A DNA stretch of 64,000 bases from Promicromonospora sp. MEB111. Lineage in GTDB: Bacteria > Actinomycetota > Actinomycetes > Actinomycetales > Cellulomonadaceae. This document shows, one piece after another, positions 23,437 through 39,526 of the stretch; within the stretch, counting starts at the first letter, position 1, and every line of letters begins with the position of its first letter. The notes beneath the pieces were generated by a model. That model did not search any database. It was not told the origin of the DNA and saw only the letters and a program-made list of their open reading frames with translations. A program made the translations under genes and the position numbers. Where the stretch lies: contig NZ_JARVSD010000007.1 of the NCBI RefSeq assembly GCF_030209445.1, forward strand, positions 248,001 through 312,000. The letters run 5' to 3'.

Positions 23437-23548
23437 GGCGTCATCCTGCCATGGTCATGTGCACGGTAACCCGGTGGAATCGCGGAAACTCGGGCGAATT
23501 GTCCCGGCGTGTCGCCTCATCGGTAGATCCGCTTTCCACGAGATGCCC

Positions 23549-24448: not shown

Positions 24449-24483
24449 GTCATGTCCTCCCGGTCGGGGTGCCGGCGTGCGCC
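24445..24483 (-). pseudogene. Fossil of an ABC-ATPase 3' end
   Basis: In the frame that stops at 24445-24447, the last codons read GARRHPDREDMT-stop. The dipeptide ABC ATPase upstream of the other DUF1684 gene ends GARTAAQHPDRKDLT-stop, with the same ATGA overlap of its stop and the DUF1684 start. This short remnant therefore shows that the duplicated unit included the end of an ABC ATPase gene. Confidence 0.7.
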
Positions 24484-24568
24484 GGCGAGGGCCCCCACCG
24501 CACATGACGAACTGGAGGCCGCACTGGTTGTCCCGCACCGCGGGTGAAGTCGCGGCACGCGATAACCA

Positions 24569-24594
24569 ACCGGTCGAATCGACATTCGATCGGT
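24569..24594. repeat. Inverted repeat in the leader of the second DUF1684 gene
   Basis: Arms of 11 bp (24569-24579 and 24584-24594) match at 10 of 11 positions around a CGAC centre; the core is TCGAAT/ATTCGA. It lies about 12 nt downstream of the predicted transcription start. It is a candidate operator or RNA hairpin. Confidence 0.5.
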
Positions 24595-24612
24595 CGGAGA
24601 TCGCCGCGCACG

Positions 24613-24641
24613 AAATTACGTCGCTCCTCCAGGAGTGTCAA
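24613..24641 (-). promoter_or_regulatory. Sigma-70-type promoter for the second DUF1684 gene
   Basis: On the minus strand a perfect TTGACA (24636-24641) is separated by 17 bp from TAATTT (24613-24618). The -35 box overlaps the stop codon of the upstream monooxygenase gene. The predicted 5' leader is about 160 nt long and contains the inverted repeat and the ABC fossil. Confidence 0.75.
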
Positions 24642-25831
24642 CGAAGCACACCGCGCACGGCACCCGCCGGCGCGGCCGGCGCCGTGATGCCCCGGGCGTC
24701 CAGGAGCGGGCGCACCCCCTCGGCGAACCAGTACGCCTCCTCCAGGTGCGGGTAGCCGGACAGCACGAACTCGTCGAAGCCGGCGTCGTGGTACTCCGCC
24801 ACCAGGTCGGCGACCTCCTCGTGGCTGCCCACGAGCGCGGTCCCCGCGCCGCCGCGTACCAGCCCGACGCCGGCCCACAGCCCCGGGTGGATCTCCAGGT
24901 CCCGGGCGTCGCCCGTGGCGGCGAGCCGGCCGCCGTCGTGCAGCGCGGCCATCCGCCGCTGCCCCACGGAGCCCGAGGTGGTCAGGACGCGCTGGGCGTC
25001 GGCGACCTGCTCCGGGGCCAGCTCGTCGAGCCAGCGCTGCGCGACCGCCCACGCGTCGGCCGACCGGTCCCGCGTCAGCACGTGCAGCCGCACGCCGAAC
25101 CGCAGGGTGCGTCCGCGCGCGGCGGCCAGCTCGCGGACCCGCTCGATCTTGCGGCGCGCCTGGTCCGGCGGCTCGCCCCAGGTCAGGTAGACGTCCGCGT
25201 GCTCGGCGGCGACCGGGAGCGCGGCGTCGGACGAGCCGCCGAACCAGATCTCCGGCGTCGGGTCGGGCGGCGCGAGGCTCCGCGCGCCCTCGATGCGGTA
25301 GTGCCGCCCGGTGTGGTCGAACGACGCCGGGCCGCCGGGCGACCCCACGGACCAGACGCCGCGCAGCACGCTCAGGAACTCGGCCGTGCGGGCGTACCGC
25401 TCGTCGTGGTCGAGCCAGTCGCCGAACCGCCGCATCTCGACCTCGTCGCCGCCCGTGACGACGTTGAGGAGCACCCGCCCGCCCGCGAAGCGCTGCAGGG
25501 TGGCCGCCATCTGCGCGGCGAGCGTGGGCGAGACGAGCCCGGGCCGCAGCGCGACCAGGAACCGCAGCCGCTCCGTCTGCTGCGCCAGGGCGGCCGTGGT
25601 GAGCCACGCGTCCTCGCACCAGGTTCCGGTCGGGGTGAGCACGGCGTCGTACCCGAGGCGGTCCGCGGCCCGCGCGACCTCGCCGAGGTACTCCACGGTG
25701 GGCGACCGCAGGCCGGTGACGCCCGTGCCGCCGTGCGACTCCTTGGCGTGCGCGCTGCCGACGATGCCGCGGGCGTCGCCGTTGGTGGGCAGGAACCAGT
25801 GCACGCCGGCCGGGCGGCGCTCCGCCGTCAC
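24638..25831 (-). CDS. SsuD-like FMNH2-dependent monooxygenase (LLM family)
   Basis: A 397-residue bacterial-luciferase-like monooxygenase, closest in layout to alkanesulfonate monooxygenase SsuD. Motifs are the FLPTNGD start, LEYLGEVARAADRLGYDAVLTPTG-type barrel strand 1, RFLVALRPGLVSPTLAAQMAAT, VTGGDEVEMRRFGDWLDHDERYARTAEFL and the WFGGSSDAA strand. Such enzymes use reduced FMN and O2 to break C-S or C-N bonds. The GTG at 25831 overlaps the preceding monooxygenase stop (GTGA). It is the last gene of the cysteine-leader operon. The exact substrate is unknown. Confidence 0.85.
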   Translation of the reverse strand: MTAERRPAGVHWFLPTNGDARGIVGSAHAKESHGGTGVTGLRSPTVEYLGEVARAADRLGYDAVLTPTGTWCEDAWLTTAALAQQTERLRFLVALRPGLVSPTLAAQMAATLQRFAGGRVLLNVVTGGDEVEMRRFGDWLDHDERYARTAEFLSVLRGVWSVGSPGGPASFDHTGRHYRIEGARSLAPPDPTPEIWFGGSSDAALPVAAEHADVYLTWGEPPDQARRKIERVRELAAARGRTLRFGVRLHVLTRDRSADAWAVAQRWLDELAPEQVADAQRVLTTSGSVGQRRMAALHDGGRLAATGDARDLEIHPGLWAGVGLVRGGAGTALVGSHEEVADLVAEYHDAGFDEFVLSGYPHLEEAYWFAEGVRPLLDARGITAPAAPAGAVRGVLR

Positions 25832-26946
25832 GCCACGGCCTCCGCCGGCTCGCCGGCCGTGAAGCCCGCCGCCCGCCGCTCGTCGCGCGGGCCCCACAGG
25901 TCGGTGGTCACCTCCGCCCGGACCAGCGGCACCACCTCGGCCGCGAACCGCCGCAGCACGTCCTCCTGGCGCGCCGGCTCGAGCAGGTGGTTCACCGACA
26001 CCGCCTGCAGCACGTGCCCGAACGAGCCGTGGTAGTCCAGGATCTTCTCGGCCACCCGCTCGGGCGAGCCCACGAGGGCCGGCCCGCGCTCCACGGCGTC
26101 CTCCAGCGTGCGGAAGCTGGTCACCTTGCCGACGGCGCCCGGCGCGTGCTTGCGCGCGTCCTGCTGGCGCACCTGGCCCTCGTAGATGGGCCGGTACTGC
26201 TCGACGGCCTCCTCGGTGGTGTCGGCCAGGAACAGGCCGCCCGAGCCGGCACCCACGAACCCGTACGCCGGGTCGTGCCCCGCGGCGGCATACCGCTCGC
26301 GGTACCGGTCGATGAGCACCGCGTAGTTCTCGCGGGGCTGCAGCGCGTTCGCGCTGACGATCGGGTCGCCGTGCTCGGCCGCCAGGTCGACGGCGAACTG
26401 CGACGTCGCCGAGCCGTGCCAGATGCGGAACGGCCCCGCGAACGGGCGCGGCAGCGTGGTCGCGTGCTCCAGCCGGTGGCGGTGCCGGCCCTCCCACGTG
26501 ACGTCCTCGGTGGACAGCAGCAGCCGCAGCAGCTCGTAGTTCTCCCGCAGGTACTCGTACTGCTTGGTGATGTCCAGGCCGAGCAGCGGGTACTGGAGGT
26601 CCTCGTTGCCCTTGCCGATGACGATCTCCAGCCGGCCGCGGCTGAGCTGGTCGACCGTCGAGAGGTCCTCGGCGAGCCGGATCGGGTCGTGCAGGGACAG
26701 CACCGTGACGCCGGTGGACAGCAGGATGCGGGAGGTGCGGGCGGCGATGGCGCCGAGCAGCACCGTCGGTGCCGACGACAGCACCGGGCCCGCGTGTCGC
26801 TCCCCCACGGCGAAGGAGTCGAAGCCGAGCTCCTCGGCGAGCACCGCCGTGTCCACGATCCGGTTCAGCCGGTCGGCGGGCGGCACCTCCCGGCCCGTGA
26901 CGGGGTGCGGCGGGTTGAACGCGATGTCCAGGACCTGGAAGCGCAT
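25828..26946 (-). CDS. Luciferase-like flavin monooxygenase
   Basis: A 372-residue LLM-class TIM barrel starting MRFQVLDIAFNPPHPVTG. Landmarks are LAEELGFDSFAVGERHAG, ISTGVTVLSLHDPIRLAEDLSTVDQLSRGRLE-type strands and a long C-terminal part. It belongs to a different subfamily from the SsuD-like neighbours, so it probably acts on a different substrate or step. The ATG at 26946 shares one base with the preceding stop (TGATG), and its own stop overlaps the next gene. Confidence 0.85.
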   Translation of the reverse strand: MRFQVLDIAFNPPHPVTGREVPPADRLNRIVDTAVLAEELGFDSFAVGERHAGPVLSSAPTVLLGAIAARTSRILLSTGVTVLSLHDPIRLAEDLSTVDQLSRGRLEIVIGKGNEDLQYPLLGLDITKQYEYLRENYELLRLLLSTEDVTWEGRHRHRLEHATTLPRPFAGPFRIWHGSATSQFAVDLAAEHGDPIVSANALQPRENYAVLIDRYRERYAAAGHDPAYGFVGAGSGGLFLADTTEEAVEQYRPIYEGQVRQQDARKHAPGAVGKVTSFRTLEDAVERGPALVGSPERVAEKILDYHGSFGHVLQAVSVNHLLEPARQEDVLRRFAAEVVPLVRAEVTTDLWGPRDERRAAGFTAGEPAEAVA

Positions 26947-28061
26947 CAGGCGGCCACCTCCTGCGCCGCCGCCCGGTCGCGCTCGGCCACGCCCTCCTTG
27001 ACCAGCGGGATGACGTATCGGCCGAAGTCGATCGCGTCGTCCAGCAGGTCGTAGCCGCGGGCCGAGATGACCCGCACGCCCAGGTCGTAGTACGCCAGCA
27101 GCGCCTGCGCGACCTGCTCCGGCGTGCCGACCAGCGCGTTGGAGTTCCCGGCGCCGCCCGTGGCCTTCGCGGTGGCGGTCCACAGCGCGGTGTCGAACCG
27201 CTCACCCTGGGCGGCGATCTCCAGCAGGCGCTGGGAGCCCGCGTTCTCCGGCTTGTCGATCGGGTGCCGGCGGCTCAGCACGCCGCCCTGAGCCGCCTTG
27301 CGCGCCTCGATCCGGCCCAGGATGCCGTGCGCCTTCTCCCAGGCCAGCTCCTCGGTCGGCGCGATGATCGGCCGGAACGCCGCGTGGATGCGCGGCGGCG
27401 TCGCCCGGCCCGCCGCGGCGGCCTCGGCGTGCACGCGGGCGATCTGCTCCGCGGTGCGGTCCAGCGGCTCGCCCCAGACGGCGTAGATGTCGGCCTCGGC
27501 GGCACCCACCGGGTAGGCCGCCTCGGACGATCCGCCGAACGAGATGGTGGGCACGTGGCCGTCGACCGGCTTGGCGTCCAGCACGAAGTCGTCAAGGTCG
27601 TAGAACTCGCCGTGGTGGTCGAACGGCTCCGCGCTGGTCCAGGCCCGCCTCACGATCTGGATGTACTCGCGGGTGCGGGCGTACCGCTGGTCCTTGGTGA
27701 GGGTGTCGCCCTCCCGGCCCTGCTCGTGGTCGTTGCCGCCCGAGATGAAGTGCACCGACAGCCGCCCGCCCGAGAGCTGGTCCAGGGTCGCGAACGTCTT
27801 GGCCGCGTACGTCGGGTAGGAGACGTTGGGCCGGTGCGCCAGCAGCAGCTCGATCCCCGGCACGTGCGCGGCGACGTGCGCGGCGAGCGCCGCCGGCTCG
27901 GGCCCGGAGGAGCCGTAGGCGAACAGGATGCGGGTCCACCCGTTGTCCGCGTGGGCGCGCGCGATGCGGACCAGGTACTCGGGGTCAAAGGGCTTGGTGG
28001 TGCGTGCGGTGGTCTCGGAGGCGTCGCTGGTCGCGGCGATGCCGAGGAACTCGACGGGCAT
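26946..28061 (-). CDS. SsuD-like FMNH2-dependent monooxygenase (LLM family)
   Basis: A 371-residue LLM protein with the SsuD-type motifs VHFISGGNDHEQGREGDTLT, RYARTREYIQIVRRAW, PTISFGGSSEAAYPVGAAEADIY and WGEPLDRTAEQI. It is distantly similar to the enzyme at 24638-25831 but has its own features, such as the long GILGRIEARKAAQGGVLSRR insert. It is placed 32 bp after the preceding monooxygenase gene and overlaps the following one. The role is inferred to be C-S bond oxidation of an imported organosulfur compound. Confidence 0.85.
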   Translation of the reverse strand: MPVEFLGIAATSDASETTARTTKPFDPEYLVRIARAHADNGWTRILFAYGSSGPEPAALAAHVAAHVPGIELLLAHRPNVSYPTYAAKTFATLDQLSGGRLSVHFISGGNDHEQGREGDTLTKDQRYARTREYIQIVRRAWTSAEPFDHHGEFYDLDDFVLDAKPVDGHVPTISFGGSSEAAYPVGAAEADIYAVWGEPLDRTAEQIARVHAEAAAAGRATPPRIHAAFRPIIAPTEELAWEKAHGILGRIEARKAAQGGVLSRRHPIDKPENAGSQRLLEIAAQGERFDTALWTATAKATGGAGNSNALVGTPEQVAQALLAYYDLGVRVISARGYDLLDDAIDFGRYVIPLVKEGVAERDRAAAQEVAA

Positions 28062-28093
28062 GGGGTTCTCCTTGGTTCGGTACGGGTACGTCG

Positions 28094-29368
28094 TCAGACC
28101 CCGCTGGCCACCCGTCCGGTGTCCGGGGCGGAGGCCCGGTCGGCGCCGCCCCAGGCGTGGGCCAGCAGCTCGAAGGAGCGGCGCGTCTCGGCGGGGTCGT
28201 GGGTCGCGGTGGTCACGAGCAGCTCGTCGGCGCCCGTGACGCGCACGAGCGTCTCGAGGCGTTCGACGACGGTCTCCGGGTCGCCCACGATCCGCGTGTC
28301 GACCCGGTCGGCCACCAGCGCGCGCTCGGAGTCGGGCCGGTCGGTCCAGGCGGTGGCGGCCGACGGCGACGGGTAGGCGATGGCGCCGCGCTCGCCGCGC
28401 CGGATGGACAGCACCCAGTCGGCGAACGGCTCGGCGAGCACGCGGGCGCGTTCCAGGGTCTGCGCCACGAGCACGTCGGCCGAGACGATGACGTACGGCT
28501 CCTCCAGCACGCCGGGCCGGAACGCCTCCCGGTAGGCGGCGACGGTGTCGAGCACCGTGGCGGGGCTGACGTGGAAGTTGGCCGCCAGCGGCAGGCCGAG
28601 CTCGCCCGCCACCCGGGCGCTCTCGCCCCCGCTGGACGCGAGGAGCCAGAGGTCGAACTGCGCCCCCTCGACGGGCGGGCTCGTGTAGGCGCCGCCGTTC
28701 CGGTCCCGGTAGGTGCCGCGCCGCACGTCGAGCACGAGCTCGACCTCCTCGCGGAAGTCGGCGGGCTGGCGCTGCACGCCGATCACCTCCTGCTGGGCGA
28801 GGATCCGCTCGCGCAGCGCGGGGTCGTTGAACCCGTTCGGCGGCGCGGGCGGCACGTAGAGCCCGTCCACGAGCCGCGGTACGTCCCCGGCTCCGGCCGC
28901 TGCCCGTCCGCCGTCGAACGTAGATCTGATCGGGTTCTCGGCCGCCTTGGCGCGACTGTTCCTACGTTCGTCGCCCCCGGTCGCGGCGGCGGCCGACGGC
29001 GGCACCGTGAACGAACGGCCCAGCCCCAGGTCGACCCGCCCGGGGTGGAGGGCCGCGATGGTGCCGAACTGCTCGGCGGCGATCAGGGGCGACGTCGTGG
29101 ACAGCAGCACCGCCCCGGAGCCGACGCGGATGCGTGAGGTGCGTGCCGCGACGGCGGCCGCGAGGACCGCCGGCGACGCCGAGGCGACGCCGGGCGCGAG
29201 GTGGTGCTCGGCGTACCAGACCCGGTGGTAGCCCAGGGCGTCGAGGTCGGTCGCGAGCGCCACGGCCCGCTGGATCGCCTCGACGCCGGTCGAACCGTCG
29301 GCGACGAGGGCGAGGTCGAGGACGGACAGGGGCACCCGGGTGGTGCGGTCGGTGGTCGGTTCGGTCAT
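28094..29368 (-). CDS. Luciferase-like monooxygenase with an internal insertion
   Basis: A 424-residue LLM protein of the MsnO8-like type, with HRVWYAEHHLAPGVASASPAV, RIRVGSGAVLLSTTSPL and FGTIAALHPGRVDLGLGR. After GLGR (residue 118) there is a low-complexity Ala/Gly stretch (about 125-160) not expected in the family, and residues 134-152 are encoded by a 57-bp in-frame segment with rare codons (AGG, AGT, AGA, TCT) and inverted-repeat ends. The remaining fold continues with FDLWLLASSGGESARVAGELGLPLA. Start ATG 29368 lies 5 nt after the solute-binding-protein stop and uses a GAGGAG within that gene. Confidence 0.82.
   Translation of the reverse strand: MTEPTTDRTTRVPLSVLDLALVADGSTGVEAIQRAVALATDLDALGYHRVWYAEHHLAPGVASASPAVLAAAVAARTSRIRVGSGAVLLSTTSPLIAAEQFGTIAALHPGRVDLGLGRSFTVPPSAAAATGGDERRNSRAKAAENPIRSTFDGGRAAAGAGDVPRLVDGLYVPPAPPNGFNDPALRERILAQQEVIGVQRQPADFREEVELVLDVRRGTYRDRNGGAYTSPPVEGAQFDLWLLASSGGESARVAGELGLPLAANFHVSPATVLDTVAAYREAFRPGVLEEPYVIVSADVLVAQTLERARVLAEPFADWVLSIRRGERGAIAYPSPSAATAWTDRPDSERALVADRVDTRIVGDPETVVERLETLVRVTGADELLVTTATHDPAETRRSFELLAHAWGGADRASAPDTGRVASGV
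28917..28973. mobile_element. Candidate 52-bp mini-insertion with 5-bp duplication
   Basis: The segment is bounded by CGTCG direct repeats (28912-28916 and 28969-28973). Just inside them are perfect inverted ends AACGTAG / CTACGTT (9 bp if the shared CG is counted: 28915-28923 and 28962-28970). One element plus one repeat is 57 bp, exactly 19 codons, so the reading frame is kept. It contains several codons rare in this genome. No transposase or second copy is seen, so this may be a footprint or chance. Confidence 0.4.
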
Positions 29369-29373
29369 GCGGC

Positions 29374-30387
29374 TCACTCCTCGGTCTTGGGCAGGCCGGG
29401 CGGGTTGGTCTCGGAGCGGTCCACGGCCTCGACCTCGAGGCCCCAGCGCTCCAGCACCTGCTGGTAGGACCCGTCCTCGATGGCGTGGTTGAGGGCAGCG
29501 GTGACCGCCTCGGCGGCGCCGGCGCCCTTCTTGGTGGCGACCGCGATCTGCGCCGTGTCGGGCCAGCCGCCGTTCAGGGTGCCGACCACCTTGAAGTCCT
29601 CCGGGGAGACCGCGGCCTGGTAGGCGAGCACGGCGTTGGGCCCCACGTAGGCCTCGACGCGGCCCGACTGGAGGGCGAGCAGCACGTCGGAGAGCTGCTC
29701 GTAGTACTCGGGTCCCTGGATGGGCTCCAGGCCGTCGGCCTGGTTGAGGCGGTCCCACTCGAGCAGGATCTTCTCCTGGTTGGTCCCGGAGCCGACGCCG
29801 ACGACCTTGCCCGCGATGTCCTCGCGCTTCTCGATCGTCAGGTCGGAGTCGGCGGCCGTGAGCCAGCCGAGCTCGTCGACGCGGTAGCTGGAGAAGTCGA
29901 TGGTCTCCTTGCGCTCCTCGGTCACGGTGATGTTGGAGATGACGGCGTCGACGTCGCCCGACTGGAGGGCGAGCGGCCAGTCGGCCCAGGCCTTCACCTC
30001 GAGCTTCACGTCCTTGCCGAGGGCGTCGGCGACGAGCTGCGCGATGTCGGTCTCGTGGCCGATCGGCGTCTTGTCGTCGTCGGCGAGGAAGACCAGGGGC
30101 GGGGAGCCGCTGGCGCTCACGGCGACGGTGATCTCGTCCTTGTCGGCCCACTCGTCCGGCAGCAGCGCGACGGCCTCGGCGGACTCGGTGGTGCGGACGC
30201 GGTCCTGGTCGGGGCTGGTGCTGACCTGCAGGCCGGCCGACTCGGGGGCGTTCTCGGCGAGGCCGGCGGCGTCGTCCGCCTCGGGCCGTTCGGTGCTGGC
30301 GGCCGAGCAGGCGGCCGTCAGGGCGAGCAGCGGTACGGCGGCCAGGGCGAGCAGACGGGTGCGGACGGCTCGTCGGGAGACGGTCAC
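29374..30387 (-). CDS. Amino-acid-type ABC transporter solute-binding lipoprotein
   Basis: A family-3 periplasmic-type binding protein (337 aa). It has a lipoprotein signal peptide with basic start, hydrophobic core and lipobox LTAAC (Cys27). The family-3 domain shows IGHETDIAQLVADALG, the ALQSGDVDAVISNITVTEERKETIDFS motif and a second lobe ending in NHAIEDGSYQQVLERWGLE. Its likely ligands are polar or sulfur amino acids. The start is GTG 30387, with AGAGGA 6 nt upstream; the longer frame upstream is Pro/Thr-rich and rejected. It lies 98 bp after the ATPase gene. Confidence 0.9.
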   Translation of the reverse strand: MTVSRRAVRTRLLALAAVPLLALTAACSAASTERPEADDAAGLAENAPESAGLQVSTSPDQDRVRTTESAEAVALLPDEWADKDEITVAVSASGSPPLVFLADDDKTPIGHETDIAQLVADALGKDVKLEVKAWADWPLALQSGDVDAVISNITVTEERKETIDFSSYRVDELGWLTAADSDLTIEKREDIAGKVVGVGSGTNQEKILLEWDRLNQADGLEPIQGPEYYEQLSDVLLALQSGRVEAYVGPNAVLAYQAAVSPEDFKVVGTLNGGWPDTAQIAVATKKGAGAAEAVTAALNHAIEDGSYQQVLERWGLEVEAVDRSETNPPGLPKTEE

Positions 30388-30485
30388 GGTAGTTCCTCTC
30401 GGGGCAGTTTCCGGGGCGGGCTCCCGGGCTGGGGTGGGGGTCGGGAACGGGGTCTGGGACGGAACGGGGGTCGGGTGCCTGCGGG

Positions 30486-31250
30486 TCACAGGACCTTCTC
30501 CAGGAAGGCTCTGGTCCGGTCGCTGGCGGGGTTGTCGAGCACGGCGTCGGGCGGTCCCTGCTCGACCACGACGCCCTCGTCCATGAAGACGACGGTGTCC
30601 GCGATCTCGCGGGCGAAGCCCACCTCGTGGGTGACGACGACGAGCGTGGTGCCGGTGCCGGCGAGCTCCTTGATCACGCCGAGCACCTCGCCGACGAGCT
30701 CGGGGTCGAGCGCGGAGGTGGGCTCGTCGAAGAGCACGACCGCGGGCCGCAGGGCCAGGGCGCGGGCGATGGCCACCCGCTGCTGCTGACCACCGGAGAG
30801 CTGCCGGGGCCGGGCGTCGGCCCGGTCGGCCAGCCCGACCCGGGCCAGCAGCTCGCGCGCCTCCGCCTCTGCCTCGGCGCGCGGCCGGCCCTGCGCGTAG
30901 ATCGGCGCCTCGACGACGTTCTCCAGCACGGTGAGGTGCGGGAACAGGTTGAAGTTCTGGAACACGAACCCGATCCGGGTGCGCCGGCGCAGGATCTCGC
31001 GCTCGGTGAGCTCCCGGAGGGTGTTGCCGTGCCGGGCGTACCCGATGAGCTCGCCGTCCAGGGAGACGAAACCGCGGTCCACCTTCTCCAGGTGGTTGAT
31101 GGCGCGCAGCAGGGTCGACTTGCCCGACCCGGACGGCCCGATGACGGCGGCAACCTCACCCGGCCGGACGGTCAGGTCCACGCCGCGCAGGGCCTCCAGC
31201 AGGCCGAACGACTTGTGCACACCCCGGATCTCCAGCAGTCCGCCGGTCAT
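30486..31250 (-). CDS. Polar amino-acid-type ABC transporter ATPase
   Basis: A 254-residue ATPase of the HisP/GlnQ class. It has Walker A GPSGSGKST, the Q-loop FQNFNLFPHLTVLENV, the signature LSGGQQQRVAIARAL, Walker B VVLFDEPTSALDPE and the switch His in VVTHEVGFA. The ATG at 31250 overlaps the permease stop (ATGA). Together with the adjacent permease and binding protein it forms one importer, comparable to cystine or S-methylcysteine transporters of the Tcy type; that substrate is inferred. Confidence 0.93.
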   Translation of the reverse strand: MTGGLLEIRGVHKSFGLLEALRGVDLTVRPGEVAAVIGPSGSGKSTLLRAINHLEKVDRGFVSLDGELIGYARHGNTLRELTEREILRRRTRIGFVFQNFNLFPHLTVLENVVEAPIYAQGRPRAEAEAEARELLARVGLADRADARPRQLSGGQQQRVAIARALALRPAVVLFDEPTSALDPELVGEVLGVIKELAGTGTTLVVVTHEVGFAREIADTVVFMDEGVVVEQGPPDAVLDNPASDRTRAFLEKVL

Positions 31251-32323: not shown

Positions 32324-32949
32324 GTCGTCAGCCACTTCTCGAAGGGGAGCGGGCCGAACGGCTGCTCGACCGCGGGGTCGGCGGGCTCGCCGGCGGCGGC
32401 CGCGGTGAGCGGCGTGTAGCCCGTGGCGCGGTAGAGCCCGGCCGCCTCCGGCTGACGCGGGCCCGTGGTCAGGTAGAGCCGCGGGTAGCCCAGGTCGCGG
32501 GCCCGCGTCTCGAGCTCGGACAGCACCCGCCGGGCCAGACCGCGGCGCCGGTGCGCGTCGTGGGTCCAGATGCGCTTGAGCTCGGCCGTGGGGACGGCCG
32601 GGACGCCGTCCGCGTCCCGGGCGTCGGCGCGCGCCAGGCGCGCGGTCTCCCCCAGCTCGGGCTCCAGCCGACGGCGGAACGCGCCGCCCGCCACCGGCTC
32701 GCCGTGCTCCAGGAGCAGCACCAGGGCGCCCACCGGCGGGGCGAACTCGTCGGCCGCGTAGTGCGTCATCTCGGCCTGGTGCTGCTCCTCGGTCAGCAGG
32801 TCGTGGTACCGGGTGCGGTACTCGACCGACAGGCCCGCCAGCAGCGGCTCGACCAGCGGGTCGGACAGGCGCACGTCGCGGACCTCCAACCCGCTCGGTG
32901 CGTCCGGGGCGGTGGACGACGGGTGCGGCCCCGCGGAGAGGGCGGTCAT
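32320..32949 (-). CDS. GNAT-family N-acetyltransferase
   Basis: A 209-residue GNAT protein. The acetyl-CoA pyrophosphate-binding motif is RRRGLARRVLSELETRARDLGY, followed by LYLTTGPRQPEAAGLYRATGYTP. The N-terminal 25 residues are low-complexity. In Bacillus, GNAT enzymes of the SnaA/SnaB type N-acetylate S-alkylcysteines before an LLM monooxygenase acts, and a similar role is inferred here from the linkage to an amino-acid importer and four LLM enzymes. Its start and stop overlap its neighbours by 4 bp each. Confidence 0.88.
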   Translation of the reverse strand: MTALSAGPHPSSTAPDAPSGLEVRDVRLSDPLVEPLLAGLSVEYRTRYHDLLTEEQHQAEMTHYAADEFAPPVGALVLLLEHGEPVAGGAFRRRLEPELGETARLARADARDADGVPAVPTAELKRIWTHDAHRRRGLARRVLSELETRARDLGYPRLYLTTGPRQPEAAGLYRATGYTPLTAAAAGEPADPAVEQPFGPLPFEKWLTT

Positions 32950-33803
32950 CGTGGTGCCTTCTCGCCCGCGGTGACGGCGAACGGCAGGTGGTTGCCCGCC
33001 AGCGGGGCGGGGCACGTGCCGAACCGCGTGAACGCGTACGGCAGGTTCACCGCCCGGTTCAGGTCCAGGCGCAGCGTGCCGGAGGCTGGCCCGTCGGCGT
33101 CGTCCGCCGTCGTCCCCGGGACCGGGACCCGCAGGACCCGCCACGGCGCGACCTCGTCGGACTCGTCGGTGAACAGGAGGGCCGGCTCGGTGCTGCTGCC
33201 GGTCAGCGCCAGGGTGGTGACCGTCCCGGCGTGGGCGACGTCCACCTCGCCGAACACCTCGACGTGGTGCACCAGGCGGGGCTGCGCCGCGCCCACGGTC
33301 ACCGCGTCGGGCTCGTCGTACCAGCGCACGGGCACGTCCAGCACCCAGGCCGGGTCGTGGTCGAACGCGGGAACGCCGTCGAACTCCGCGCGGGTGGCCG
33401 CCTCCGGGTCTCGCGGCCGCACCCCGTACCGGCCGGTGCGCAGCACCACCTCGACCGCCACCTCGTGCTCGGCGCCGGCCGCGCGGCCCTCGGGCAGGAA
33501 CGTGCCCAGGATCTGGCTGCGGCCCTCGCCCACGACGATCGACGTCGGCCCGTCGGGCTCGACGTGCTCCCCCACCAGACTGGCCGTGTCGCCGGACGCC
33601 GGACGGGTGAACAGCGTCCGGTCGTCGACCCACCACTCGCCGGGCAGCCCCGGCAGGCGCGACGGCGTGGCCGTGGGCCACAGCAGCGCCGCCGGAGTCA
33701 GCCAGCCGTGGGGCTTGCGCAGCTCGCGCTCGCGGGCGGCCCGCCACGCGGCGTGCTCGCGCGCGGCGGCGTCGGCGTCGGGCGGGCTCAGTACCTCGGT
33801 CAT
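32946..33803 (-). CDS. DUF1684 protein, operonic copy
   Basis: A 285-residue DUF1684 protein with the complete family signature: LRLDLNRAVNLPYAFTRFGTCPAPLAGNHLPFAVTAGEK split over about residues 245-283, retaining the Cys that the second copy lacks. Its function is unknown; it is probably soluble and beta-rich with no signal peptide. It is sandwiched with ATGA overlaps between the dipeptide ATPase and the GNAT gene, so it should be made in step with the importers and enzymes. Confidence 0.88.
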   Translation of the reverse strand: MTEVLSPPDADAAAREHAAWRAARERELRKPHGWLTPAALLWPTATPSRLPGLPGEWWVDDRTLFTRPASGDTASLVGEHVEPDGPTSIVVGEGRSQILGTFLPEGRAAGAEHEVAVEVVLRTGRYGVRPRDPEAATRAEFDGVPAFDHDPAWVLDVPVRWYDEPDAVTVGAAQPRLVHHVEVFGEVDVAHAGTVTTLALTGSSTEPALLFTDESDEVAPWRVLRVPVPGTTADDADGPASGTLRLDLNRAVNLPYAFTRFGTCPAPLAGNHLPFAVTAGEKAPR

Positions 33804-35581
33804 GTCAGGTCCTTCCGGTCGGGGTGCTGCGCAGCGGTGCGGGCACCGGGGATCGCCGCGATCAGCTCCGCGGTGTACGGGTGGGCGGGGTGGTCGAACA
33901 CGCGGCCGACGGGTCCGGTCTCCACGAGCCGGCCGTCGCTCATGACGCCGACGTGGTCGGCGACCTGCCGCACCACCCCCAGGTCGTGCGAGATGAACAG
34001 GTAGGTGAGGCCACGCTCCGCGCGCAGCCGGGCCAGCAGCTCCAGCACCCGGGCCTGCACGGAGACGTCGAGCGCGGAGGTCGGCTCGTCCAGCACGAGC
34101 AGCTCCGGGTCGAGCGCCAGCGCCCGCGCGATGGCCACCCGCTGGCGCTGCCCGCCCGACAGCTCGGCCGGCCGCCGTCGGGCCAGGTCCGGCGAGAGGT
34201 GCACCTGCTGCAGGAGCTGCGCCACCCGCTCGCGCCGCTCGGCGCGGTCGCCCACGCGGTGCGCGCGCAGCGGCTCCTCCACCACGGCGGCGACCGTGAA
34301 GCGCGGGTCGAGGGACGAGTACGGGTCCTGGTGCACGAGCTGGGTACGACGGCGGGTCGCCCGGTCGGCGCCGACGGGCGCGCCGTCCAGCTCGACCGCG
34401 CCGGCGTCGGGCCGCTCCAGGCCGAGCACCAGGCGCGCCGTGGTCGACTTGCCCGACCCCGACTCCCCCACCAGGGCGAACGCGGAGCCCCGCGGGACGG
34501 CGAACGACACGTCGTCGACGGCGCGCAGCCGCTCGCGGCGGTCCAGGCGGAACTCCTTGACGAGCCCGCGGACCTCCAGGAGGGCGGGTGTGGCCCCAGG
34601 GCCCGGGTCGGTGCCTGGGTCGGTCCTGGCCACGGCGGTGCCGGTGGCGGTTCCTGCGACGGCGCCCGCCCCGCTCGGGGCTGTGTCGTCGGGCGCCCCG
34701 GGCTCCGGACCGGCGTCCGGCGCCGACGCGCTTGGCACATTATTTCTGCCGGGCACCGCCGCGACGAGCTCCCGCGTGTACGGGTGCTCGGGCGCGCCCA
34801 GCACCCGGGCGGCCGGCCCCTCCTCGACCACCACGCCGTCCTTGAGCACGACCACCCGGTCGGCCCGGTCGGCGGCCACGGCGAGGTCGTGCGTGATGAG
34901 CAGCACCGCCGTTCCAGCGCGGCCGGTGAGGTCCGCGAGCAGGTCGAGCACCCGCCGCTGCACCGTCACGTCCAGGGCCGACGTCGGCTCGTCCGCGATG
35001 ACCAGCTCCGGCTCGCACGCCATGGCGATGCCGACGAGCACCCGCTGCCGCATGCCGCCGGAGAGCTGGTGCGGGTACTGCCGGGCCCGCTCCCGCGGCC
35101 GGTCCAGCCCCACCTCGGCCAGGATCTCGACGGCCCGCTCCCGGGCGGCCCGCCGCGGCGTGCCGTGCACCACGAGCGCCTCGGCGACCTGCTCCCCCAC
35201 CCGCACCACGGGGTCGAGCGCGGTGCCCGGGTCCTGCGGCACGAACCCCACGCGCACGCCGCGCACGCGCCGCCACGCGTCGGGGAGCAGGCCGGTCAGC
35301 GGCGTGGGCCCCTCGCCGAGCGTCACCTCGCCCGCGGTGACGCGGCCGCCGTCGGGCAGCAGGCCGATCAGGGCGTGCGCCGTGGTGGACTTGCCGCTCC
35401 CGGACTCGCCGACCAGCGCGACCACCTCGCCGGGCCGCACGTCCAGGTCCACGCCGTGCACCACCTCGCGGTCGCCGTAGGCGACACGCAGGCCCCGCAC
35501 GCGCAGCGGGCCGCCCGACGGCGCGGGGTCGACCGGGCCCGTGGTGGTCGCGCCCGTGCCGGGCCGCGTCGTCAGCGTCAT
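33800..35581 (-). CDS. Dipeptide-type ABC transporter ATPase, two fused domains
   Basis: A 593-residue fusion of the DppD- and DppF-like ATPases. Domain 1 has Walker A GESGSGKST, signature LSGGMRQRVLVGIAMA and Walker B LVIADEPTSALD. Domain 2 has [24 protein letters not shown] and LLVLDEPTSALD. Both end in the oligopeptide-type zone HPYTREL / HPYTAEL. An Ala/Pro/Gly/Thr-rich linker of about 60 residues joins them. It energises the permeases encoded just upstream. The ATG at 35581 overlaps the DppC-like stop. Confidence 0.93.
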   Translation of the reverse strand: MTLTTRPGTGATTTGPVDPAPSGGPLRVRGLRVAYGDREVVHGVDLDVRPGEVVALVGESGSGKSTTAHALIGLLPDGGRVTAGEVTLGEGPTPLTGLLPDAWRRVRGVRVGFVPQDPGTALDPVVRVGEQVAEALVVHGTPRRAARERAVEILAEVGLDRPRERARQYPHQLSGGMRQRVLVGIAMACEPELVIADEPTSALDVTVQRRVLDLLADLTGRAGTAVLLITHDLAVAADRADRVVVLKDGVVVEEGPAARVLGAPEHPYTRELVAAVPGRNNVPSASAPDAGPEPGAPDDTAPSGAGAVAGTATGTAVARTDPGTDPGPGATPALLEVRGLVKEFRLDRRERLRAVDDVSFAVPRGSAFALVGESGSGKSTTARLVLGLERPDAGAVELDGAPVGADRATRRRTQLVHQDPYSSLDPRFTVAAVVEEPLRAHRVGDRAERRERVAQLLQQVHLSPDLARRRPAELSGGQRQRVAIARALALDPELLVLDEPTSALDVSVQARVLELLARLRAERGLTYLFISHDLGVVRQVADHVGVMSDGRLVETGPVGRVFDHPAHPYTAELIAAIPGARTAAQHPDRKDLT

Positions 35582-36402
35582 CGGTCCGTCCTCGTCTCGC
35601 GGGTGAGCGCCCGGCCGAGCACGCCGACGGCGAGCACGAACAGGGCGATGACCAGGCCCGGCAGCGTCGAGTACCACCAGGCGACGGCCAGGTAGTCGCG
35701 CCCCTCGGCCACCAGGGAGCCCCACTCGGGCGTGGGCGGCGTGGCGCCGTACCCGAGGAAGCTCAGGGCGGAGACCGCCAGGATCACCGCGCCGAGCTCG
35801 ACGGCCGCGAGCGCCAGCACGGGGCCGGCGGCGTTGGGCAGCACGTGCCGCAGCAGGACGGCGCCCCGGCCCGCCCCGGCGAGCCGGGCGGCCTCCACGT
35901 AGGTGGCGTGCCGTACCCGCAGCACCTGGCTGCGCATGACGCGGGCGAACGTGGCCACGGAGGCGACGCCCACGGCGATGGCCACCTTGACGGTGCCGAA
36001 GCCGAGCGCGGTCACGACGGCGAGCGACAGCAGCAGGCCGGGGATGGCGAGGAGCACGTCGGTGGCGCGCATGAGCGCGTCGTCGACGGGGCCGCCGAGG
36101 AAGCCGGCGAGCAGCCCGACGCCGGACCCGGCCACGAGGGCGACGCCGATCGCGAGCAGCGCGGCGCGTACCGACAGGCTCGTGCCGTGCACGGTGCGCG
36201 AGAACAGGTCGCGGCCGAGGTGGTCGGTGCCGAACCAGTGGGCGGCGCCGGGGGCCTGGAGCTTGTCCGCCGGGACGCCGGTGATCGGGTCCTGCCCCGT
36301 GAACAGACCGGGGACGAGCGCCCAGGCCAGGACGAGCACCACGATCACGAGCGCCACCAGCGCGGCGGGCCTCGTGCGCAGCAGGGCGAGCCCGCGGGTC
36401 AT
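35578..36402 (-). CDS. Dipeptide-type ABC transporter permease (DppC-like)
   Basis: A 274-residue permease. It has an N-terminal membrane helix, the conserved HWFGTDHLGRDLFSRTVHGTSLS loop that marks DppC/OppC proteins, and the EAA motif EAARLAGAGRGAVLLRHVLPNAAGP. Five further membrane helices follow. It starts at ATG 36402, overlapping the DppB-like stop, and ends overlapping the ATPase gene. Confidence 0.93.
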   Translation of the reverse strand: MTRGLALLRTRPAALVALVIVVLVLAWALVPGLFTGQDPITGVPADKLQAPGAAHWFGTDHLGRDLFSRTVHGTSLSVRAALLAIGVALVAGSGVGLLAGFLGGPVDDALMRATDVLLAIPGLLLSLAVVTALGFGTVKVAIAVGVASVATFARVMRSQVLRVRHATYVEAARLAGAGRGAVLLRHVLPNAAGPVLALAAVELGAVILAVSALSFLGYGATPPTPEWGSLVAEGRDYLAVAWWYSTLPGLVIALFVLAVGVLGRALTRETRTDR

Positions 36403-37364
36403 CGTGCGCCTCCCCCGGTGCGGCCGTGGGCGCCGGCGAGCACCCGCGGGTCGAGCAGGGGGTGCACGAGATCGACCAGGAGGCTGGTGAGCACGAACAC
36501 CGCTGCGGCGACGACCACGAGCCCCTGGACCACGGGGATGTCCTGCGTGGTCACGGCGTTCTCGACGAGCCGGCCGAAGCCCTGGCGGGAGAACACCGTC
36601 TCGACCACGACCGTGCCGCCGAGCAGGTTGCCCACGAGCACGCCGAGCACGGTGACGGTCGGCAGGGACCCGTTGCGCACCACGTGCGCGCCGAGCACCC
36701 GGGCCCGGCCGGAGCCCTTGGCGAACGCGGTCTCGACGTAGGGCGCGCGCCAGGCCTCGCGCAGGCCCTGGGAGAGCACCTGCGCGACGACGGCGGCGAG
36801 CCCGATCGCGAGCGTGACCGTGGGCAGCACCAGGGAGGCGAACCCCTCGTTGCCGACCGCCGGGAAGACGAACCAGGTGAACGAGAACAGGTGGAGCAGC
36901 ACGAGCCCGACCCAGAACCCGGGCACCGCGACACCGAGCGGCGGCAGGGCGAGCAGCAGGTCGCGCAGCCACGCGGCCCGGGTCCAGGACGCGAGCAGCG
37001 CGATCCCCACCCCGGCGACCAGGGCGAGCGCGAGCGCGAGGCCGGCGAGCTTCGCCGTCTCGGGGAACGCGTCCGCGATGAGGCCGGAGACGGGGGCGCC
37101 GCTGCTGATGGACGTGCCGAGGTCGCCCGTCAGCGTCCGGCCGAGCAGCGTGACGTACTGCTGGAGCGGGCCCTGGTCGAACCCGTAGCGCTCGCGCAGC
37201 TCGGCGACGCGCTCCGGGTCGACGCGCTCGCCCCCGGCGCCCTGGTCGAGCATGATCGCGACCGGGTCGCTGGGCAGCAGGTACAGGATCAGGTAGGAGA
37301 CGGTGAACGCCGCCCACAGGACCGCGACGGCGCCGGCGAGGCGGCGCAGCACGTAGGCGAGCAT
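36399..37364 (-). CDS. Dipeptide-type ABC transporter permease (DppB-like)
   Basis: A 321-residue DppB/OppB permease. It starts LAYVLRRLAGAVAVLWAAFTVSYLI and has the long extracytoplasmic region with LRERYGFDQGPLQQYVTLLGRTLTGDLGTS and the EAA loop YVETAFAKGSGRARVLGAHVVRNG. Start ATG 37364 shares a base with the binding-protein stop; a GTG immediately before it (37367) is equally possible. It pairs with the DppC-like protein. Confidence 0.93.
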   Translation of the reverse strand: MLAYVLRRLAGAVAVLWAAFTVSYLILYLLPSDPVAIMLDQGAGGERVDPERVAELRERYGFDQGPLQQYVTLLGRTLTGDLGTSISSGAPVSGLIADAFPETAKLAGLALALALVAGVGIALLASWTRAAWLRDLLLALPPLGVAVPGFWVGLVLLHLFSFTWFVFPAVGNEGFASLVLPTVTLAIGLAAVVAQVLSQGLREAWRAPYVETAFAKGSGRARVLGAHVVRNGSLPTVTVLGVLVGNLLGGTVVVETVFSRQGFGRLVENAVTTQDIPVVQGLVVVAAAVFVLTSLLVDLVHPLLDPRVLAGAHGRTGGGAR

Positions 37365-39007
37365 CACTCCTGCTCGATCCAGGCGTCGTGGAACAGCAGC
37401 CGGGAGGAGGCGTCGAAGGTGACGCCGTGCACGTCACCACGCACCCCGATCGACTGGGACAGCTCGAACAGCGGGACGGCGAGGCCCTGGTCGAGGATCG
37501 CCTCCTGCGCCTCGGCGGCGATCGCGTCGCGGGCGGCCGGGTCGGCCTCGCCGAGCTGCTCGTCGAGCAGCGGGTCCACGACGTCGTCGGGCTCGCGCAG
37601 GCTGAGGTTGCGCTGCGCGGTGGAGAACTGGGTGCGCAGGATGTCGGCGTCGGCCCGGGTGACGTTGTAGTAGTAGAAGTCGTAGTCGCCGGAGTCCTGG
37701 GCGACGGTCTGCTCGGGGGCGGTGAGCTGGCGGAGCGTGAGGTCCACTCCGACGGCGCGCAGCTGCTGGGCCACCAGCTCCAGCACCGGCCCGCTGCCGG
37801 TGAACACCGGGGTGTAGGTCACCTCGATCTCCAGCGGCTCACCGTCCTTCTCGCGGATGCCGTCCGGGCCGAGGGTCCACCCGGCGTCGTCGAGGATGCG
37901 GCCGGCCTCCTCGGGGTCGAACGCGAGCCGGTCGGACAGGTCGGCGTAACCGGGTGTGGTGGACGCGAGGATGCCCGTGGCCGGCTCGAACGCGTCCGAC
38001 AGCACGGTGTCGACCAGCTCCTGGCGGTCGATCGCCAGGAGGAGGGCGCGGCGCACCTCGACGTCGTCCAGGGGCGCGCGGGTCAGGTTGGGTTGCAGCA
38101 CGAACGGCACGCCCGGGTTGGCGCGGGTCAGCACCGCGCCGCCCGAGCCCTCGATCTGCGGCACGTCCTGCGGCAGCACGTCGCCGACGGCGTCGAACTG
38201 GTCGGACGCGAGCCCGCCGGCCCGCACCCCGGACTCCGGGACCACGGAGAACTCGACGCGCTCCAGGTAGGCGTCGCCGTCGTGCTCGGCCGACGCGGGT
38301 GCCCAGTCGTAGCCCTCGCGGCGCGTGATCACGGCGCCCTGGTCCTGCGTGTAGCTGTCCAGGACGAACGGCCCCGAGCCGACGACGTCGCCCTGCAGCC
38401 GCTCGGCCGGGTCCACGTCCGCCGTCTCCGCGGCCAGGATCGCGAGCGACACCGTCGAGGTGGCCTGCAGGAACTGCGCGTTCGGCTCGTCGAAGACGAC
38501 GGTCGCGGTGCTCTCGTCGGGCACCTCGGTCTGCTCGTAGCCCGCGAGGTAGCTCGCCGCGAGCGGGGCGCTCGCCCCGAGGTCGCCAGCGATGGCGTCG
38601 AAGCTGGCCTTGACGTCGGCGGAGTCCAGCGCGCTGCCGTCGGAGAAGGTCACGCCGTCGCGCAGGTGGAACGTGAACCGGGTCAGGTCGTCGCTGACGT
38701 CCCAGCTCTCGGCGAGCCACGGCTGGATCTCGCCGGTGGTCGGGTCCTGGTCGGTCAGCGAGTCCGCGAGCTGCCGCGCCACGTAGATGCTGACGTTCGA
38801 GCCGACCTGCTGCGGGTCCACGCCCTGCGGCGCGGCCCCGAGCGCGAACCGGAGCGTGCCGCCCGGCGTCGGCTCGGCGGACGCGCTGCCCGAGGCGGTG
38901 TCGGGTCCGGCGCAGCCGGTCAGGGCGAGCGCGGCGGCCAGGACCGTGGCGACGGCCGGGGCGGCGACTGCTGTGGACGGCGTGCGGCGGGGGTGGTTCG
39001 GGACCAT
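37364..39007 (-). CDS. Dipeptide-type ABC transporter solute-binding lipoprotein
   Basis: A family-5 (DppA/OppA) binding protein of 547 residues. The signal peptide ends in lipobox LTGC (Cys32), and the domain shows GGTLRFALGAAPQGVDPQQ, the LAESWDVSDDLTRFTFHLRDGVTFSDG signature and VRRALLLAIDRQELVDTV. Ligands for this family include peptides, glutathione and opine-like molecules; here a sulfur-containing peptide is inferred from the Cys-rich leader. Start ATG 39007 has AGAGGA 7 nt upstream. It is the first large gene of the operon, 259 nt after the leader ORF. Confidence 0.93.
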   Translation of the reverse strand: MVPNHPRRTPSTAVAAPAVATVLAAALALTGCAGPDTASGSASAEPTPGGTLRFALGAAPQGVDPQQVGSNVSIYVARQLADSLTDQDPTTGEIQPWLAESWDVSDDLTRFTFHLRDGVTFSDGSALDSADVKASFDAIAGDLGASAPLAASYLAGYEQTEVPDESTATVVFDEPNAQFLQATSTVSLAILAAETADVDPAERLQGDVVGSGPFVLDSYTQDQGAVITRREGYDWAPASAEHDGDAYLERVEFSVVPESGVRAGGLASDQFDAVGDVLPQDVPQIEGSGGAVLTRANPGVPFVLQPNLTRAPLDDVEVRRALLLAIDRQELVDTVLSDAFEPATGILASTTPGYADLSDRLAFDPEEAGRILDDAGWTLGPDGIREKDGEPLEIEVTYTPVFTGSGPVLELVAQQLRAVGVDLTLRQLTAPEQTVAQDSGDYDFYYYNVTRADADILRTQFSTAQRNLSLREPDDVVDPLLDEQLGEADPAARDAIAAEAQEAILDQGLAVPLFELSQSIGVRGDVHGVTFDASSRLLFHDAWIEQE

Positions 39008-39266
39008 GGGGTTGTCCTCTCGGGGCACGGCGAGGCGGACCTGCGCGAGGGTGCACGAAGGTCCGTCACCGGAGGTGACGCGGGGGGCGAGGTGTGAGGG
39101 CGGGGTCGCGGCGCCGGGGTGCGGCATGCCGGCCCGGGCGGGTACGACGAGGAAGGGGTACGAGGAAGGGGTACGAGGAACGCGTACGACGAGGAACAGC
39201 CGCGAGGGGCCGTTCAGCGGGGGCGCCGCGAGGCGTTCCCCGGGGGCTGCGAGGTGTCGGGGGCCG
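39008..39266 (-). promoter_or_regulatory. C-rich attenuator-like leader after the Cys ORF
   Basis: The 259 nt between the leader ORF and the first binding-protein gene hold no gene. As RNA (minus strand) it is C-rich and contains four copies of a TTCCTCGT(CGT)AC unit (39141-39197), then a CGTCACC-GGA-GGTGACG hairpin (39064-39080) and the AGAGGA Shine-Dalgarno of the next gene. The UCCUC units could pair with that Shine-Dalgarno, or the C-rich stretch could serve as a Rho loading site when the leader ORF is translated to its end. This is inference. Confidence 0.5.
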
Positions 39267-39353
39267 TCAGCAGCCGGCGGGACAACACTCCTGGGCACGA
39301 CACATGGGGCGGGCGTGCGCGAACTGCACCGTGCCGTACATCGCTCGTGCCAT
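39267..39353 (-). CDS. Cysteine-rich leader peptide (28 aa)
   Basis: A 28-codon ORF starts at ATG 39353 with a strong GGAGGGAG Shine-Dalgarno and stops at 39267. Residues 18, 23, 24 and 28 are Cys (C-terminal MCRAQECCPAGC), so the ribosome must decode four Cys codons in the last 11. It lies between a good promoter and the importer/monooxygenase operon. Polycysteine leader ORFs are known in mycobacteria as cysteine-responsive attenuators. The same role is inferred: low Cys-tRNA stalls the ribosome and opens the operon. Confidence 0.78.
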   Translation of the reverse strand: MARAMYGTVQFAHARPMCRAQECCPAGC

Positions 39354-39376
39354 GTCGGTCTCCCTCCGATTCGAAT

Positions 39377-39397
39377 TCCCTATCGGACTGATAGGGA
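39377..39397. promoter_or_regulatory. Perfect inverted repeat in the operon leader
   Basis: TCCCTATC (39377-39384) and GATAGGGA (39390-39397) form an 8-bp perfect inverted repeat with a 5-bp centre. It lies just downstream of the predicted transcription start and upstream of the leader ORF. It is a candidate repressor operator, for example for a sulfur regulator of the Rrf2/CymR or LysR type, though the regulator is unknown. Confidence 0.6.
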
Positions 39398-39411
39398 TTC
39401 GGTATGCGGGG

Positions 39412-39440
39412 AAGTTACGGCCGCCCACGGGGCATGTCAA
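39412..39440 (-). promoter_or_regulatory. Sigma-70-type promoter of the organosulfur operon
   Basis: On the minus strand TTGACA (39435-39440) is followed after 17 bp by TAACTT (39412-39417). Transcription would start near 39405, giving a leader of about 50 nt before the Cys-rich ORF. It lies in the gap after yvcK, which also has a small GGACGG...CCGTCC hairpin (39468-39489) that may end the yvcK transcript. Confidence 0.75.
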
Positions 39441-39526
39441 CGGTGTCCACGAAGGGTCTCGCATCGCGGACGGAGCCGGCTCGCCGTCCTGCCCCACCGA
39501 CGTCCGGCCCCGCGTCGAACCGCAGG

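Follow-up and report, generated by a model that had tools for sequence, protein, structure and literature searches.

A sulfur-poor Promicromonospora operon with a rare-codon cysteine leader and a probable role in organosulfur scavenging

Within a 64,000-nucleotide stretch of DNA from the genus Promicromonospora (the window, that is, the whole stretch analysed), the minus strand between positions 24638 and 39353 carries a 28-codon cysteine leader followed by 13 closely packed genes, and we regard this unit as very probably a cysteine-controlled operon for organosulfur scavenging during sulfur starvation. It combines its gene set with a conserved TGT-Cys leader and sulfur-poor proteins. The operon is probably switched on at cysteine shortage, and it seems built for the import of organosulfur molecules and the removal of their sulfur; over 95% of soil sulfur is reported to be organic (PMC4267179). 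A reading made earlier from the sequence only had proposed sulfur scavenging by luciferase-like monooxygenases (LLMs) under cysteine control, and this proposal is now well supported by the leader codons, the sulfur sparing, an FMN reductase, and the SsuD-type and rhodanese partners described below. The kind of system is already known; what is new here is how far sulfur sparing goes, the TGT leader with its Shine-Dalgarno sequence, and the presence of DUF1684.

All 13 genes are minus-strand genes free of internal stop codons, and 10 of the 12 junctions overlap by 1–4 nt when ATG 29368 is taken as the start of gene J, in line with the mostly overlapping, single-strand arrangement that had been claimed. 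With this start, I and J are separated by 5 nt, and the alternative GTG 29377 would make them overlap; J and K lie 32 nt apart. The gene families also came out as previously named. The dipeptide-type importer consists of the SBP_bac_5 lipoprotein A (37364..39007), the Opp/Dpp-type permeases B (36399..37364) and C (35578..36402), both BPD_transp_1 proteins, and the fused double ABC ATPase D (33800..35581). It is followed by E (32946..33803), a DUF1684 protein with an N-terminal extension, and by the GNAT acetyltransferase F (32320..32949). The amino-acid-type importer comprises the permease G (31247..32323), the ATPase H (30486..31250), whose best NCBIfam match is TcyN, below the cut-off, and the SBP_bac_3 lipoprotein I (29374..30489). 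Four Bac_luciferase proteins complete the set: J (28094..29368), K (26946..28061), L (25828..26946) and M (24638..25831). The site of insertion of the operon lies between yvcK and whiA, and the operon is adjoined on the same strand by a second DUF1684 gene and putative member, N (23549..24505), 71% identical to E and with the motif Cys replaced by Gly. The earlier reading was silent on this second gene, on the insertion site and on the sulfur-poor composition.

Among the 4776 residues of the 13 proteins there are only 5 Cys and 14 internal Met, roughly one fifth of the background level (Cys 0.105% vs 0.551%; internal Met 0.293% vs 1.394%), and none of 20,000 random 13-gene sets was as low. A, E and I have no internal Met, and J, K and L have neither Cys nor internal Met. 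For K, both were absent from 13/13 aligned sequences, and across genera this family showed 1 Met and 0 Cys in 13,373 residues. The five remaining Cys occupy functional-looking sites, as judged from alignments and motifs: the lipoboxes of A (Cys32) and I (Cys61), where they are the sole Cys, the position of M aligned with SsuD/MsuD, the TCP motif of DUF1684 and an A-C-x-P stretch of an ATPase. Proteins stripped of Cys and Met in this manner could be made when sulfur is lacking. Lowered Cys and Met have been reported for putative desulfonation gene products of Gordonia (PMC7661421), and sulfur sparing has been reported for Rhodococcus (PMC8557817).

The leader ORF (39267..39353, minus strand; MARAMYGTVQFAHARPMCRAQECCPAGC) is preceded by GGAGG and contains three TGT and one TGC codons for cysteine. 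The 28-aa frame is kept in four congeners, and across five Promicromonospora sequences, the window's included, TGT accounts for 19/20 leader Cys codons; TGT is used for 0/49 Cys codons in 35 window genes and for 17/245 in 106 background ORFs. The leader is therefore more than a chance ORF, and its earlier recognition as a Cys-rich leader was borne out. In 14 of 23 testable loci the cassette was preceded by a CC-containing short ORF carrying two or more TGT codons, and in these 42/49 Cys codons were TGT, compared with 42/266 in CC-containing short ORFs elsewhere on the same loci. The leader was missing in the other 9 of the 23, including P. citrea, where 8 of the 13 genes are retained, and also in the congener locus L038, which has F–L only. 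The mycobacterial polycysteine leaders, for which cysteine-responsive attenuation is described (Canestrari 2020, as cited by PMC9031893 and PMC13236596), likewise have contiguous Cys codons within a short ORF ahead of the genes. Unlike those leaderless ORFs, the one found here is Shine-Dalgarno-led, with a −10-like hexamer ending 58 nt upstream of its ATG, and spells Cys mostly with the rare TGT.

A promoter-like TTGACA-17-TAACTT site lies at 39412..39440 on the minus strand; TTGACA is present in 5/5 aligned Promicromonospora sequences and the complete site in 4/5, the window's included, the fifth having TACCTT. The consensus scan called no promoter between 38950 and 39540 at its threshold, so that the single promoter proposed earlier is founded on conservation only; no intrinsic terminator was detected in the same interval. 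Directly downstream of this site, on the same strand, the inverted repeat CCCTATC-AGTCC-GATAGGG (39378..39396) is kept with changes in congeners. As a regulon operator it was rejected: no other genome site had 0–1 mismatch, and the 10 sites with two mismatches equalled the 10 of the reversed control. From this repeat to the leader stop, folding was no better than in shuffles (z −0.31). An Rfam scan at gathering thresholds gave no match. A conserved RNA stretch at 39008..39090, same strand, is predicted either to pair with the Shine-Dalgarno sequence of A (GAGAGGAC) or to form CGUCAC-CUCCG-GUGACG; its covariation was weak (both sides changed in 2/23 pairs) and the z-score of the switch fold was −1.69. 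A plausible course of events is that ribosomes would stall on the rare TGT codons when Cys-tRNA is scarce, and that the 5' leader RNA would then refold and free the ribosome-binding site of A.

The four PF00296 proteins are, by family prediction, FMN-dependent monooxygenases. M is close to SsuD/MsuD (350–364 bits) and aligns with these alkanesulfonate monooxygenases over most of its length, although its scores stay under the curated SsuD cut-offs (427.7 vs 518.2 for TIGR03565; 442.5 vs 510 for NF001939). Alignment to 7jv3 and 1nqk showed that M keeps the aligned Cys and the SsuD active-site stretches R-x-H, LVRGG and SGYPHLEEAY, certain residues of which we take to be catalytic. J is of the MsnO8 type, with a TIGR03558 score over the cut-off, and K (SsuD/SfnG-like) and L (CE1758/2I7G-like) remain below the cut-offs. 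The operon differs from ssuEADCB because its importers are of the SBP_bac_5 and SBP_bac_3 types, with no SsuABC-type importer, and because an SsuE-like reductase is encoded elsewhere in the genome (C33). The operon itself contains no importer of the sulfonate type and no gene for a deacetylase or an FMN reductase. Within the genus, the SsuE-like FMN reductase occurred in 8/8 genomes with the operon vs 1/5 without it, and among the additional proteins of relatives are rhodanese, NtaA/DmoA LLMs and flavin reductases. The SsuE-type enzyme would feed FMNH2 to the four LLMs, which may break C-S bonds and thereby set free sulfite or a thiol, M being the candidate for alkanesulfonates. For many LLM enzymes, J, K and L included, no substrate has been assigned.

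The two ABC importers would take up sulfur-containing amino-acid-like and peptide-like compounds, in line with the earlier prediction that both modified amino acids and peptides are imported. The best NCBIfam match of A is TIGR04028. The names of TIGR04028 and TIGR04027 (SBP_KPN_01854 and LLM_KPN_01858) suggest the SBP and LLM of one Klebsiella locus; A stays below the TIGR04028 cut-off (357.9 vs 468.5), and TIGR04027 is passed by no operon gene. The gene set had been thought not to be a described system, and we found no published description in the literature searched, but the combination is not unique, since an Agrobacterium plasmid carries both importers and two LLMs in a row. In Rhodococcus qingshengii IGTS8 grown sulfate-free on dibenzothiophene, the raised proteins reported in PMC8557817 include a TcyC/TcyA/sarcosine-oxidase trio (peg5783-5785), which by annotation only is similar to part of the cassette, and LLM-type enzymes. 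Searched for these terms, the main text of PMC8557817 mentions neither DUF nor leader.

The operon might instead be the actinobacterial counterpart of the scm/ytn route of Bacillus, in which S-alkylcysteine is N-acetylated, cleaved oxygenolytically to N-acetylcysteine and deacetylated to cysteine; we consider this unlikely. The pathway logic is taken from PMC9706529 and PMC12757645, which report that the scm (yxe), ytn and yha clusters of Bacillus subtilis each pair an acetyltransferase with a monooxygenase, with an ABC importer in scm. At the gene-family level the operon is similar, uniting a GNAT, an amino-acid importer with a TcyN-like ATPase and LLM enzymes, and relatives have NtaA/DmoA LLMs and a second GNAT. 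It nevertheless differs by adding a dipeptide-type importer, DUF1684, an SsuD-type LLM and a Cys leader. F matches PF00583 (52.1 bits) and generic families only, none of the four operon LLMs passes the NtaA/DmoA model, and the NtaA-type LLMs of this genome lie in a second cluster elsewhere. There is no N-acetylcysteine deacetylase gene among the 13, and an HMM scan of unassigned ORFs found an M20 peptidase, the family to which we take these deacetylases to belong, in 1/50 related loci (L093). Three deacetylases are described as redundant in Bacillus (PMC12757645), and a deacetylase elsewhere in the genome could therefore serve. N-acetyl-S-methylcysteine had no match in the literature searched. 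The Bacillus acetylate-cleave-deacetylate route, to whose N-acetylation step the sequence-only reading had pointed, was not supported, nor was any specific substrate; the GNAT may N-acetylate some of the imported compounds.

A division into two adjacent units, with A–D for peptide or nickel-type uptake and only E–M acting on organosulfur, appears improbable. The matches of A to NikA-type and DppA models, below cut-off, would fit such a division, as would the relatives without one or the other importer: A–E are missing in L038, and G–I in L035 and L041. However, A–D are poor in Cys and Met like the rest. Moreover, plasmids of Streptomyces and Agrobacterium, and other actinomycetes (L192, L198), have genes of the A–D type next to LLM genes. 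Another explanation of the composition is that sulfur residues are avoided because leaky hydroperoxyflavin or peroxide would oxidize them, the operon serving oxidative carbon or nitrogen catabolism. LLM enzymes generate peroxyflavin, and nitrilotriacetate gave its name to the NtaA family, to which the extra LLMs of relatives belong. Yet the depletion extends to the importers and binding proteins but not to 21 LLM paralogs encoded in the same genome (Met 1.80%), and the Cys leader with its rare TGT codons before the genes and the rhodanese of relatives also speak against this explanation, which we judge very improbable. For the preferred reading of sulfur-starvation scavenging, near-zero Cys/Met together with a TGT-Cys leader provides a sequence-only marker that could find such operons in other genomes.

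E exceeds the DUF1684 (PF07920) cut-off (99.5 bits vs 25), and both its model and its profile match haloarchaeal proteins of solved structure. The six fold matches at E values up to 0.001 correspond to two haloarchaeal proteins of unknown function, and nothing is thus learned about the function of DUF1684. For HVO_1043, a Cx7C form of DUF1684 has been proposed to act in a thiol relay (PMC9426492). E lacks this motif, having Tyr256 at the first position and its single Cys, Cys264, at the second; both Cys occur in 4/28 aligned sequences. DUF1684 retains a conserved Cys while the operon is otherwise purged of this residue, and its most likely role is in handling a thiol, either as product or as intermediate. 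A family of unknown function is thereby placed in a context open to experiment, with one residue as the candidate for function. More tentative, and somewhat doubtful as a whole, is a wider proposal in which DUF1684 would generally assist LLM desulfurases by handling thiols or sulfite through the Cys spared by the purge. The operon would then be a self-sparing module in which whole families (K and nearly J) dispense with Cys and internal Met, and the rare TGT codon would be the sensor of a Cys-codon translational switch. An exclusive partnership with LLMs was rejected, as 14/24 regions outside the family had no LLM over 150 bits, and no LLM was annotated near the two plasmid homologs examined of nine, from Arthrobacter and Nitratireductor. 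Independent support for the sulfur reading comes from the same comparison outside the family, as LLM genes lay near DUF1684 in 10 of the 24 regions, compared with 1 of 20 in the control.

By far the most probable function of the operon is to scavenge organosulfur compounds under cysteine control. Its architecture as proposed in the sequence-only reading was borne out: a 28-codon leader and 13 genes (A to M) occupy 39353-24638 of the minus strand, and profile matches to the claimed families were obtained for all the genes. A is an SBP_bac_5 protein, B and C are permeases, D is a fused double ATPase, E a DUF1684 protein, F a GNAT, G and H an amino-acid-type permease and ATPase, I an SBP_bac_3 protein, and J, K, L and M are luciferase-like monooxygenases (LLMs; Bac_luciferase). 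J is of the MsnO8 type (TIGR03558, 284.3 bits, above cut-off), K is SsuD/SfnG-like but scored under cut-off with all listed models, L came nearest to TIGR04036 (CE1758) and structure 2i7g, again under cut-off, and M is of the SsuD/MsuD type, with 442.5 bits against a cut-off of 510. In alignments, M retained the Cys, R-x-H, LVRGG and SGYPHLEEAY stretches of SsuD/MsuD, which we take to hold the catalytic residues, and alkanesulfonates are its likely substrates. The R-x-H His and the LVRGG Arg were missing from K, suggesting that this enzyme should act on something other than M does.

The products of A to M contain only 5 Cys and 14 internal Met per 4776 residues (0.105% and 0.293%), against 0.551% and 1.394% in 106 background ORFs, which were picked by GC3 with the first start codon taken and may thus carry spurious N-terminal residues, and 0.530% and 1.202% in 30 other ORFs of the window. 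None of 20,000 random 13-gene sets from these 136 ORFs reached the operon value for Cys or for Cys plus Met. Two of the five residual Cys belong to the lipoboxes of A and I; the others are Cys189 in D, Cys264 in E and Cys72 in M, the last aligning with the SsuD/MsuD Cys. Across the loci with J of at least 57% identity, among the best 80 of 94, K showed 1 Met and no Cys per 13,373 residues (37 segments), J showed 4 Cys and 13 Met per 18,586 residues (51 segments), and A to N pooled, N being the second DUF1684 gene, gave 0.10% Cys and 0.32% Met. This genome gave 33 LLM matches; after exclusion of the 4 operon LLMs, 5 on contig C33 and 3 without a locus, the remaining 21 had 0.216% Cys and 1.80% Met. 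In excerpts of earlier reports, sulfur sparing is described for Rhodococcus IGTS8 (PMC8557817) and, in Gordonia, for proteins encoded by putative desulfonation genes (PMC7661421); enzymes wholly devoid of Cys and internal Met were not met in the excerpts of this literature.

TGT makes up 3 of the 4 Cys codons of the operon leader and 19 of 20 in the leaders of five Promicromonospora sequences, the window's included, against 0/49 in 35 window genes (2/67 with looser ORF calls) and 17/245 in 106 ORFs from 13 other genome regions. For a wider survey, 49 loci (L062-L110) were reduced to 47 by removing two with J below 57% identity, and to 23 testable ones by removing 24 in which the first cassette gene is preceded by less than 600 nt. 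A short upstream ORF that has CC within the 22 C-terminal residues and two or more TGT codons was found in 14 of the 23, several of them closely related strains and thus not independent, and was absent from nine, P. citrea included; no upstream short ORF with CC of any other kind was found among the 23. TGT accounted for 42/49 Cys codons in the 14 leaders vs 42/266 in 80 CC-containing short ORFs elsewhere on the same loci. Outside Promicromonospora the peptides diverge, and the Cys run is their main common feature. Between leader and A, six Promicromonospora sequences retain a stretch able to pair from upstream with the Shine-Dalgarno sequence (SD) of A (GAGAGGAC) or else to form an alternative hairpin, CGUCAC-CUCCG-GUGACG. 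Predicted pairs were altered on both sides in 2/23 cases, and the window's fold had z = -1.69, with 12/200 shuffles equal or better. This is only suggestive of translational attenuation, in which, according to part of PMC13236596, stalling within an upstream ORF frees an SD.

The sequence-only reading had likened the operon to the Bacillus pathway that works through N-acetylation, and here the analogy failed at one defining step tested, deacetylation: Bacillus has a deacetylase, whereas none is encoded within the 13 genes. An M20-family peptidase lay near the cassette in 1/50 related loci, one Cellulomonas (L093, 16081-17424), and is possibly an N-acetylcysteine deacetylase. The Bacillus deacetylases are redundant, according to an excerpt of PMC12757645, so an enzyme encoded elsewhere in this genome could supply the missing step.

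Relatives were gathered by scanning with a J alignment. Among the best 80 of 94 loci, core-gene cassettes were found in Promicromonospora, Cellulosimicrobium, Cellulomonas, Oerskovia, Sanguibacter, Krasilnikoviella and Puerhibacterium; in most of L111-L141, J was present and the other operon genes were not. The importers are separable, with A-E missing from L038, G-I from L035 and F-I from L041. Extra genes in relatives encode two NtaA/DmoA LLMs, both above the TIGR03860 cut-off, an FAD amine oxidase, a nitroreductase, a rhodanese, a second GNAT, a flavin reductase and an SsuE-like FMN reductase. A second cluster of this genome, on contig C33 (228000-247900 and 245000-262000), holds NtaA-like LLMs, likewise poor in Cys and Met, a rhodanese (74% identity over 97 residues to that of relative L045), a GNAT, two A-D-type importers, a nitroreductase, and flavin and FMN reductases, and has its own TGT-Cys leader (4 TGT, 0 TGC). 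The theme extends beyond the host's family, since A-D-type importers adjoin LLMs on a Streptomyces plasmid, LLMs lie close to an amino-acid importer on a Tsukamurella plasmid, and on Agrobacterium plasmid pAt (L231, 8929-19512) genes for an SBP5-type importer, two LLMs and an amino-acid importer follow one another, an alphaproteobacterial parallel to this operon.

The operon is flanked upstream by uvrC, rapZ and yvcK, and downstream by N, whiA and gapA. whiA comes directly after yvcK in three congeners that lack the operon and in four other genera (one genome each), and a 16-kb insertion at 23437-39526 parts the pair here, indicating from gene order that the operon is an insertion inside a conserved housekeeping block. 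The same site holds only a DUF1684 gene in L040, and a DUF1684 gene plus an SsuE-like reductase in L042. In P. kroppenstedtii (L039, 2691-3352), nothing but pieces of I and J comes after DUF1684, and K lies on a different contig, the result of either decay or a draft-assembly break. An inverted repeat, CCCTATC-AGTCC-GATAGGG (39378-39396), stands directly 3' of the promoter-like site and is retained in congeners; no further copy was found in the genome at 0-1 mismatch.

The predicted structure of E was confident (pLDDT 93.6), and its six PDB matches at E <= 0.001 represent two haloarchaeal proteins of unknown function, which the DUF1684 profile also found from sequence. Part of PMC9426492 places a Haloferax DUF1684 protein among thiol relay proteins for a conserved Cx7C, whereas E has Tyr at the first position and Cys264 at the second. 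Among 28 aligned DUF1684 proteins, four had both Cys, 21 had just the second and three had neither, N (23549-24505, minus strand) being among the last. Being the one Cys that E retains despite the purge of Cys from the operon, Cys264 probably has a function; the motif Cys of N is replaced by Gly, and by Ser in two congeners, as if thiol chemistry had been lost. Around the 24 highest-scoring DUF1684 matches outside the host's family (within roughly 10 kb or as far as the contig reached), an LLM above 150 bits was found in 10/24 regions, not independent because some share one genome, vs 1/20 hand-picked control regions of those genomes (one-sided Fisher test, p = 0.005); an initial tally over 20 of the 24 regions had given 9. 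L192, which reads A-B-C-D-J-X1-X2-E-L consecutively, and L189, L198, L202 and L204 are the clearest cases.

As to FMN supply, an SsuE-like reductase was found in 8/8 operon-bearing vs 1/5 operon-free genomes among the 13 of the genus (p = 0.007, kinship ignored), and in that single operon-free genome the gene adjoins DUF1684. K was present in 7/13 genomes, G006 having the operon without it. The reductase gene comes after L in P. soli and P. citrea, and in this genome it is located at C33:253187.
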